A stretch of 28,649 nt of DNA, from positions 1 to 28,649 of the IMG/VR virus record IMGVR_UViG_3300035682_000143; one strand, 5' to 3'. Numbering within the stretch: position 1 is the first letter of the stretch; each line of letters starts with the position of its first letter. The DNA comes from a virus. Below are positions 26,833 through 28,649 of the stretch, in pieces. The translations under genes were made by a program, and so were the position numbers. The notes below the pieces were generated by a model, which was not told where the DNA came from, did not search any database, and saw nothing but the letters and a program-made list of their open reading frames with translations.

Positions 26833-27156
26833 ATGAAAAAATTATTCATTACTCTAGCATTAGCCTGTGTAACATTGCCGGCACTAGCACAACACCACGG
26901 ACATGGATTTCGCCATAATGGGAATCATCACGGTCACTATCGAGGACCAGGGTATGGTGGTTGGGTAGCACCTTTGATTATTGGTGGTGCGATCGGTTAT
27001 ACATTAACTAGACCAGAGCCTGTGATTATACAGCAACCAGTAATTATAGAACAACAACCGATTATTCAAAATCAAAATTGTAGTCCATGGAAAGAAGTCT
27101 GGACTTCTGATGGCAAAATTTATAGAGAAAGAACTTGTACTAGTCAATATAACTAA
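26833..27156 (+). CDS. Secreted His/Gly-rich protein
   Basis: A 107-residue protein with a typical Sec signal peptide (MKKLFITLALACVTLPALA, cut after residue 19). The mature part opens with a His/Gly-rich stretch (QHHGHGFRHNGNHHGHYRG), then a hydrophobic VAPLIIGGAIGYTL segment, a repeat-like IIQQPVIIEQQPIIQ run, and two cysteines at the end that may form a disulphide. The histidines could bind metals. Similar small exported proteins occur in many proteobacteria, so this may be of host origin. AAGGAG lies near the ATG, and a strong terminator follows. Confidence 0.85.
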   Translation: MKKLFITLALACVTLPALAQHHGHGFRHNGNHHGHYRGPGYGGWVAPLIIGGAIGYTLTRPEPVIIQQPVIIEQQPIIQNQNCSPWKEVWTSDGKIYRERTCTSQYN

Positions 27157-27185
27157 TACTGACGTTGACCTAAACTATTCGCATT

Positions 27186-27231
27186 AAACATTTATATGGT
27201 ACTACTTTTAAGTACTAGTGTAAATGTTTTT
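27186..27231 (+). terminator. Intrinsic terminator with long hairpin
   Basis: AAACATTTA (27186-27194) pairs with TAAATGTTT (27221-27229); inner pairs include GTACT/AGTAC. Uracil-rich TTTTT follows the stem base. It ends transcription of the secreted-protein gene, just before the tRNA. Confidence 0.8.
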
Positions 27232-27234
27232 AGC

Positions 27235-27321
27235 GGATAGTTGGTCGAGAGGCTTATGACACCAATCTCCGAAGTTGGCAAAGACGTAAGTCTTTCAGGG
27301 GTTCAAATCCCCTACTATCTG
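27235..27321 (+). tRNA. Class II tRNA with anticodon CCG (Ser-type body)
   Basis: The 87-base gene folds as a complete cloverleaf. Acceptor GGATAGT (27235-27241)/ACTATCT (27314-27320); D stem GTC/GAC; anticodon stem CCAAT (27262-27266)/GTTGG (27274-27278) with loop CTCCGAA, so the anticodon is CCG at 27269-27271; variable arm AAAGAC/GTCTTT with GTAA loop; T stem AGGGG/CCCCT with loop TTCAAAT. The base after the acceptor stem is G73; no CCA is encoded. The long variable arm and G73 are serine features, whereas CCG would read the Arg codon CGG. The loop pair next to the anticodon is a T-G wobble. A degenerate or reassigned tRNA are the alternatives. Confidence 0.85.
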
Positions 27322-27334
27322 CTAAGAACATTTT

Positions 27335-27568
27335 ATGAAAACAATTATTTTACTAACAGCAATTTTACTATCAGGATGTACATCATTAAACAAAGTATTG
27401 CATAATGACCATATCGCTTGTCTAGAAGCCCAAAAATCTATGAGCAGAGATCAAACGATGAGAGACATCGCTATGCTAGAAATGGCAAAAACTGCCAATG
27501 ATCAAACTAAAATGGCAGCAATGACAGCAATCGCACAAAGCAAGCAACAAAACCTTGCTTGCAAGTAA
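27335..27568 (+). CDS. Small lipoprotein
   Basis: A 77-residue protein with a short N-terminal signal and lipobox, MKTIILLTAILLSGC, giving Cys15 as the lipidated residue. The mature part is polar, alanine- and methionine-rich, helical, and holds two more cysteines (C29 and the penultimate one). It probably sits on the inner face of the outer membrane. Its size and position could suit an outer-membrane spanin (Rz1-like), but there is no proline-rich region and no matching inner-membrane partner next to it. The ATG lies 14 bases after the tRNA, so both may share a transcript. Confidence 0.82.
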   Translation: MKTIILLTAILLSGCTSLNKVLHNDHIACLEAQKSMSRDQTMRDIAMLEMAKTANDQTKMAAMTAIAQSKQQNLACK

Positions 27569-27587
27569 CTTAAACACAGGTTTTTTT
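27549..27587 (+). terminator. Weak possible terminator after the lipoprotein gene
   Basis: AAAACCT (27549-27555) and AGGTTTT (27578-27584) can pair, and three more T follow. The loop is long (22 bases), so the call is weak. It overlaps the end of the lipoprotein gene. Confidence 0.3.
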
Positions 27588-27620
27588 AAAGGATTGTAAT
27601 AAATCCTTAAGACATCATAG

Positions 27621-27628
27621 TATAAATA
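27621..27628 (+). promoter_or_regulatory. Late promoter, perfect TATAAATA
   Basis: An exact T4 late consensus in a noncoding gap, seven bases before the ATG at 27636, which leaves almost no leader. It makes the solute-binding protein gene a late gene. Confidence 0.65.
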
Positions 27629-27635
27629 CAATACT

Positions 27636-28454
27636 ATGAAAAAACTACTCACATTACTTTTTGTACTGGTTACCTCACTAGCCCAGGCACAGATGCCAGG
27701 TTCCACAGTACCGCTACCCGCAGATATTGCCGCAATTAAGAAAGCTAATGTTCTTATTGTAGCAATGACCAAAAAAGATAATCCTCCTTTCTTCTCCGGA
27801 GAAGGCGACGATATCCGAGGTCTTGACGTTGAGATTGCTCGACGAATTGGTGTCCTACTTGGAGTGCCAGTACAGTTCAGACGCGATGCTGAAAGTTTCG
27901 CTGAAGTTGTTGAACAGGTTGTAACCGGTAAAGCGGATATAGCTGTTAGTAAACTATCCGTAACTGGTCCACGTTTACAAGTTGTTAAATTCAGTGATCC
28001 TTATATTAGACTAAGACAAAGTTTGGTTATTAATCGACTATGGCTAAGTCAAAACAGCCAAGGGCGTGAAGTATATCAAGTCATTAGAAATTTTAATGGC
28101 AAGATTAGTTTTATCAAGAATTCAAGTTACGACACATTTGCCCGTGTTAATTTTCCTAATGCAACATTTGTTCCTGAAGAAAAGTGGGATGTGATCATTG
28201 ACAAAGTCACACGTGGCGACATTGCTGCCGCTTACCGTGATGAATTTGAAATTAAGAAAATTGCTTTTGAAAAACCTGATGCGGCAATTACTACAAAGTC
28301 GATTACAATCTCTGACAGCGTAGACAATATTGCAATAGCTGTAAACCCAAAAGCTGTTCAATTGTTAAGCATTGTTAATCACGTTATTAAAAATGAATAC
28401 AGTAACATTGACACTAAAAAGTTAATGGACAGATATAAAGCAGAAAAGAAATAA
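27636..28454 (+). CDS. Periplasmic solute-binding protein (SBP_bac_3, amino acid type)
   Basis: A 272-residue protein with a Sec signal peptide, MKKLLTLLFVLVTSLAQA, and then a bilobed binding protein of family 3: ANVLIVAMTKKDNPPFF, RGLDVEIARRIGVLLGVPVQ (G-x-D-V-E-I-A motif), VVTGKADIAVSKLSVTGPR, VKFSDPY, SYDTFARVNFPN, and a second-lobe stretch TRGDIAAAYRDEFE. The key ligand-binding D/E and R positions appear present. Such proteins deliver polar amino acids to an ABC transporter or, in some cases, act as sensors or enzymes. No permease or ATPase gene is seen nearby, so it would act with host partners or as a binding decoy. It is under a late promoter. Confidence 0.9.
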   Translation: MKKLLTLLFVLVTSLAQAQMPGSTVPLPADIAAIKKANVLIVAMTKKDNPPFFSGEGDDIRGLDVEIARRIGVLLGVPVQFRRDAESFAEVVEQVVTGKADIAVSKLSVTGPRLQVVKFSDPYIRLRQSLVINRLWLSQNSQGREVYQVIRNFNGKISFIKNSSYDTFARVNFPNATFVPEEKWDVIIDKVTRGDIAAAYRDEFEIKKIAFEKPDAAITTKSITISDSVDNIAIAVNPKAVQLLSIVNHVIKNEYSNIDTKKLMDRYKAEKK

Positions 28455-28463
28455 GGATATAAA

Positions 28464-28649
28464 ATGAGATCAATAACAATATTATTTGCTACCGCAATAT
28501 TTACTACAGTGTGTCACGCAACATGGAACCCTAGTGAGGCGGAGGTCGCATTAAGTGCAAAAGAAGATGCTAGAGATATTGCATTATTTAAATTAATGAC
28601 ACCTAGTGCTGATGAAATCAAATTAAGTGCCAAAGAAGATGCAAGAGAC
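28464..28649 (+). CDS. Secreted protein with LSAKEDARD repeats (runs off the window)
   Basis: The visible 62 residues open with a Sec signal peptide (MRSITILFATAIFTTVCHA, cut after residue 19). The mature part has two copies of a 24-residue unit whose core is LSAKEDARD (residues 30-38 and 54-62); the second starts before the window ends, so more may follow. Before each copy comes a similar (S/E)-A-(D/E)-E-(V/I) phrase. The polar, helical repeat suggests a coiled, secreted or periplasmic rod-like protein. AAGGA lies 8-12 bases before the ATG, and the gene begins nine bases after the solute-binding protein, probably in one transcript. The function is unknown. Confidence 0.7.
   Translation, partial: MRSITILFATAIFTTVCHATWNPSEAEVALSAKEDARDIALFKLMTPSADEIKLSAKEDARD

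Follow-up and report, generated by a model that had tools for sequence, protein, structure and literature searches.

Why does a large phage encode an exported amino-acid-binding protein, and does this protein act alone or as part of a transport system? The question arises at the end of the window analyzed here, a 28,649-base IMG/VR record that terminates 195 bp after the stop codon of the solute-binding protein (SBP) gene (Table 1). A preliminary description of the sequence had noted a run of four exported-protein open reading frames (ORFs) at positions 26,833–28,649, among them a lone SBP without its transporter. The run itself is real: all four ORFs lie on the same strand and have signal-peptide-like or lipobox N-termini by a crude export filter, which only 2 of the 40 other ORFs in the window passed. 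The late promoter proposed at position 27,621 is also present. The lack of a transporter is another matter, as it could not have been supported from the window, where only 195 bases remain past the SBP stop codon, and in related loci a transporter gene follows the SBP wherever the contig continues.

Table 1. Features at the 3′ end of the window.
Feature	Position	Strand	Remarks
His-rich exported protein, 107 aa	26833..27156	+	Variable neighbor
tRNA-Arg, anticodon CCG	27235..27322	+	ARAGORN; between the His-rich and lipoprotein ORFs; absent from the list in the preliminary description
Lipoprotein, 77 aa, lipobox LSGC	27335..27568	+	Variable neighbor
T4-type late promoter TATAAATA	27621..27628	+	7 bases 5′ of the SBP start codon
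SBP_bac_3 periplasmic amino-acid-binding protein, 272 aa	27636..28454	+	First gene of the SBP-SDF-holin-racemase operon
SBP Sec signal peptide MKKLLTLLFVLVTSLAQAQ, cleavage near AQA/Q	27636..27692	+	Sequence and heuristic filter
Small exported repeat ORF, LSAKEDARD ×2, start only	28464..28649	+	Cut by the record end; accessory

The assignment of the SBP to family 3 was borne out by its match to SBP_bac_3 (PF00497; E 7e-17, 61.8 bits vs. a Pfam gathering score of 26.4) and by matches to solved amino-acid SBPs (E 6e-15). Its relatives, 68–93% identical, were found in 45 viral loci by a scan of viral contigs, many on contigs of 235–525 kb. Residues S105, K106, S108, R113, and D202 are invariant among these relatives, and R113 and D202 align with the solved amino-acid SBPs; we take these two to be the alpha-carboxylate Arg and the alpha-amino acid residue, respectively, of such proteins. 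The signal peptide varies across the relatives while the mature part is conserved; dN/dS for the SBP gene is ~0.09. A structure model of the SBP (pLDDT 56) was too poor for use. An origin from a MltF-like lytic transglycosylase was rejected on the NCBIfam MltF score (40 bits against a cut-off of 354) and the lack of an SLT domain.

Clustering of all neighboring ORFs in the related loci placed the SBP at the head of a conserved block, in which it is followed by a ~425-aa SDF symporter (PF00375), a ~202-aa single-transmembrane (TM) protein, predicted below to be a holin, and a ~230-aa racemase of the aspartate/cysteate type. Scans seeded with each of the four proteins gave 57 distinct viral cassettes that extend as far as the holin. 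SBP, SDF, and holin occur in that order in every one of them (57/57), and 45 also have a racemase match; where both flanks of the cassette are in view, the racemase is in place in 38 of 45. Matches to the SBP, SDF, and racemase in phage records, mostly in long records or contigs resembling bacterial chromosomes, were not used as relatives. Every viral locus with an SBP or SDF gene but missing its partner stops at a contig end and, contig ends aside, the SBP-SDF pair never occurs without the holin in the phage loci scanned. The converse does not hold, as viral holin homologues without the pair exist. In all 39 readable cases, the first 4–38 nt of the holin gene fall within the end of the SDF gene; this count leaves out members apparently starting with GTG.

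Going by gene order in the relatives, the SBP opens a conserved operon rather than standing alone, and the four exported proteins do not form a unit, since the three neighbors of the SBP recur in few relatives. Close homologues of the His-rich ORF were found only in two related loci (L011 and L018), with weaker ones in three more (L019, L032, and L046), and the lipoprotein ORF, which weakly matches the Cor superinfection-exclusion family (PHROG_1119, E 1e-4), occurs in 2 of 45 (L011 and L018). The small repeat ORF is missing between the SBP and SDF genes in most relatives. It is complete (71 aa) in L004–L006, where it closely matches the copy in the window, with its last 27 bases shared exactly, and where the SDF gene comes next; given that the window stops inside this ORF, the transporter gene is expected just beyond position 28,649 in the source genome. 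All that follows on the operon past this position was read in relatives, the record of this genome showing the first gene only. Near the cassette, we also observed two families of large exported low-complexity proteins (f5 and f6; ~20 of the loci L002–L046), which, together with a coiled-coil TM protein (f4), travel as one block.

The cassette has the marks of a late operon. Of 46 SBP starts, 43 have the motif [TC]ATAAATA no more than 75 bp upstream, as against a frequency of 0.9% in random 75-mers and 4.5% for other genes. The preliminary description had taken the late promoter to make metabolic help less likely; this argument is weakened by the presence of the motif before nearly all of these SBPs and by the transport genes and the holin sharing one operon. 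All four genes are under purifying selection (dN/dS of 0.09 for the SBP, 0.07 for the SDF, 0.08 for the holin, and 0.12 for the racemase, the last from only 86 columns). Genes outside the cassette vary between loci while the block remains intact. Distances among the SBPs track those among the SDFs well (Mantel r 0.85), and racemase distances show a weak correlation with the others (r 0.28–0.43). Of 15 cassette-bearing contigs searched for the capsid protein Gp23, 8 encode it, among them 7 of the 8 longer than 200 kb, marking these as T4-like viruses. The carriers of this late operon are large lake phages, T4-like jumbo phages with contigs of up to 353 kb and one of 525 kb.

The transporter of the relatives shows a full-length match to PF00375 (E 1e-65, 222 bits vs. 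a cut-off of 27.9) and shares with the canonical SDF/DAACS proteins (GltPh, GltP, and DctA) the TM8 Asp and Arg (D394 and R397 in GltPh). It differs from them in its linkage to an SBP, in scores far under the equivalog cut-offs, and at the sodium sites: the NMDGT motif and the sodium-site aspartates were not found in the phage SDFs, all of which read NRIGS in place of NMDGT, with N401 replaced by His and D405 by Asn. Given these replacements of canonical sodium-site residues, the coupling of the phage SDFs, and even active transport by them, is uncertain. The protein matches PHROGs other than PHROG_10776 (674 positions), a guessed SBP-SDF fusion family. A linked permease and ATPase, as expected of an ABC amino-acid importer, were not found; in both viral and bacterial loci it is the SDF symporter that follows the SBP. 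Based on this gene linkage, the SBP and SDF are a candidate SBP-dependent secondary transporter.

The third gene of the operon is predicted to encode a T-type holin, an assignment based on fold and context. The AlphaFold model of the 202-aa protein (pLDDT 76) returned the T4 holin T as the first-ranked Foldseek match (6px4_T, E 8e-6, probability 1.00), and the predicted model displays both the topology and the periplasmic fold of the T4 T type. The PDB match covers the periplasmic domain, and most other fold matches were to GAF domains, so that the modeled fold would not be decisive by itself. A family profile, which improved on a one-sequence hhalign comparison with the T4 holin, gave a weak alignment to the T4 T family over the full length (E 7.5e-4, probability 25%). 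The protein did not match the T4 T-type sequence family PHROG_860 and instead matched PHROG_31287, a family of unknown function that includes gene S13_076 of the Cronobacter phage S13 and that probably comprises T-type holins, judging from fold and gene context. As for context, an endolysin and a spanin-like ORF immediately follow the homologue in the Vibrio phage IKEMa6-1 (L057), a lysozyme gene is found near it in a phage from Manatee Spring (L051), and in L134 the homologue comes immediately after a GH19 endolysin. The protein has a short N-terminus, one TM helix, and a periplasmic GAF-like domain in common with the T4 holin T/antiholin RI system, while differing in sequence (~13% identity), in its embedding in a transport operon, and in that no RI homologue was identified. 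It is the sole T-like holin in 10 of 13 large contigs; of the remaining three, two have a second divergent copy and the third is the 525-kb contig, which has two cassettes. A second, more divergent T-like holin (~245–250 aa; L033, L092, L095, G405, and G406) was also seen, in the first three near a GH19 endolysin.

The racemase matches PF01177 (E 3e-38), and the two catalytic cysteines of the aspartate/glutamate racemase superfamily (in PCN and GCTE) are invariant. All 10 racemase members matched the profile of the cysteate racemase CuyB (NF052483, NCBIfam); the member compared with the curated cut-off, that of L007, exceeded it (211 vs. 190).

The same three families in the same order are also found in bacteria. 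Homologues of the SBP were present in 8 of 398 Pseudomonadota genomes and in 7 further genomes from two orders; an SDF gene adjoins the SBP in all 15 of these loci, and 9 of the 15 (e.g., L344, L347, L348, and L361–L366) have an SBP-SDF-racemase run. None of the 15 loci had a holin match, in contrast to the phage cassettes, and the SBP identity was ~38% in the one pair measured (L047). The SBP-linked bacterial SDFs carry xRxGx at the TM7 motif; across SBP-linked SDFs, Arg occupies the second position of NMDGT and the motif Asp is lost, whereas canonical paralogues keep N[LM]D. In a tree of SDFs, those of the phages form one clade (100/100) that is joined, at moderate support (87/88), to the majority of the SBP-linked SDFs from bacteria, and two SBP-linked SDFs with NRHGS were placed next to canonical ones with weak support and on long branches. 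In L344, L345, and L361, a second, divergent SDF paralogue lies downstream of the bacterial SBP-SDF pair, and a two-SDF transporter is possible there. In L347, L348, and L367, the TM8 Arg is replaced by Met, which suggests a non-acidic substrate for that SDF branch.

Taken together, the conserved SBP residues, the TM8 pair of the SDF, and the racemase family favor the reading that the SBP opens a late operon in which a captured bacterial set for acidic-amino-acid uptake and racemization surrounds a phage holin and feeds the infected cell, to which we assign a probability of roughly 60%. The phage lineage would have acquired a bacterial SBP-SDF-racemase uptake operon, with the holin gene now placed downstream of the transporter gene, whose 3′ end it overlaps, and upstream of the racemase. 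At a late stage of infection, the exported SBP would bind an acidic amino acid in the periplasm (aspartate, glutamate, or cysteate, perhaps in the D-form) and pass it to the SDF elevator transporter; the racemase would interconvert D- and L-forms in the cytosol, and the cell would go on receiving precursors until the holin, expressed alongside, terminates the infection. We infer the cooperation of SBP and SDF, the direction of racemization, and the benefit. An acidic amino acid or its sulfonate analogue as the substrate is likewise suggested by family resemblance, where the conserved SBP residues, the TM8 Asp and Arg of the phage SDFs, and a racemase above the cysteate-racemase cut-off agree. 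Help to host amino-acid uptake, as proposed in the preliminary description, thus stands as the best reading, while its former ground, an SBP without a transporter, gives way to the transporter that follows.

The most interesting rival couples the transport genes to lysis, given that the phage uptake genes were never found without the holin even though the bacterial operon has none. Here, the SBP and/or the SDF would be wired to the holin as sensors, the time of lysis then depending on acidic amino acids outside the cell. By analogy to the antiholin RI in T4, the ligand-bound or free SBP, or the transporting SDF, might conceivably touch the periplasmic domain of the holin, and a tentative example of a signal would be acidic amino acids freed by lysing neighbor cells. 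The overlap of holin and SDF and the status of the holin as the sole T-like one in most genomes fit such wiring, as do two precedents: the T4 holin T is controlled by a periplasmic protein with a signal peptide (PMC11413866), and the cyanophage PstS is a phage SBP that affects lysis timing under starvation (PMC10976474). However, the conservation of the SBP pocket residues and of the racemase catalytic cysteines would be needless for a pure antiholin, and in bacteria the three genes are found together with no holin beside them; we regard lysis control as unlikely.

Common descent might by itself account for the linkage, with nutrient genes and holin sharing a late operon by ancestral accident. 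One ancestral insertion would be enough to explain the correlated SBP and SDF distances and the single phage SDF clade, but the block stays intact while outside genes differ, and the racemase keeps its position in most two-flank cassettes despite its weakly correlated distances, leaving such hitch-hiking rather improbable. The preliminary description had also raised the blocking of competing phages. A cluster of exported accessory proteins that excludes superinfecting phages or blocks competitors is suggested by the weak Cor-family match of the adjacent lipoprotein, yet that lipoprotein is nearly absent from related loci, and an SBP, a transporter, and a racemase fit such a role poorly, making it very improbable. 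That these exported genes encode virion proteins also appears unlikely, because the SBP has a signal peptide of a cleavable type, divergent in sequence ahead of a conserved mature part, and is encoded beside a transporter, a holin, and a cytosolic enzyme.

Among the closest known systems is TAXI-GltS of Bordetella pertussis, in which the partner of the SBP gene is likewise a glutamate symporter of the elevator type, made of one component, and not the membrane part of an ABC or TRAP system (PMC12344293); the phage SBP belongs instead to family 3 (PF00497), the transporter is an SDF (PF00375), and a racemase follows. Before TAXI-GltS, the only SBP-dependent secondary transporters known were TRAP and TTT, and its 2025 description notes that more classes are needed to test the predisposition of elevator transporters to SBPs (PMC12344293). 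TRAP and TTT also combine a periplasmic SBP with an ion-driven transporter, coupling being uncertain in the phage proteins, but their membrane components are lacking in the phage operon, and the SBP and transporter families are unrelated. The cyanophage PstS is similarly a phage-borne SBP for nutrient capture in T4-like phages (PMC10976474); it uses the host PstABC and binds phosphate, whereas the lake phages carry their own transporter and enzyme in a holin operon, with an amino acid as the probable substrate. No description of an SBP_3-SDF transporter, or of a phage-borne SBP-SDF or SBP-racemase pair, was found in the open-access literature searched, and, as far as that literature goes, binding-protein-dependent secondary transport by an SBP_3-SDF pair, here in the lysis operon of a phage, appears not to have been described. 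The pair is a candidate, and one open to testing, for a further class of SBP-dependent secondary transporters, based on the SDF fold of glutamate transporters. In large lake phages, the placement of what appears to be the only T-like holin gene within an operon for nutrient uptake would also connect amino acids in the environment with late metabolism and lysis.

Finally, contig IMGVR_UViG_3300027749_002876 (524,565 bases) contains two different complete cassettes in opposite orientation (L016 and L024). The listed genes of L024 appear identical to those of a separate 171-kb contig (L043), and the larger contig may be a chimera or a two-copy genome.
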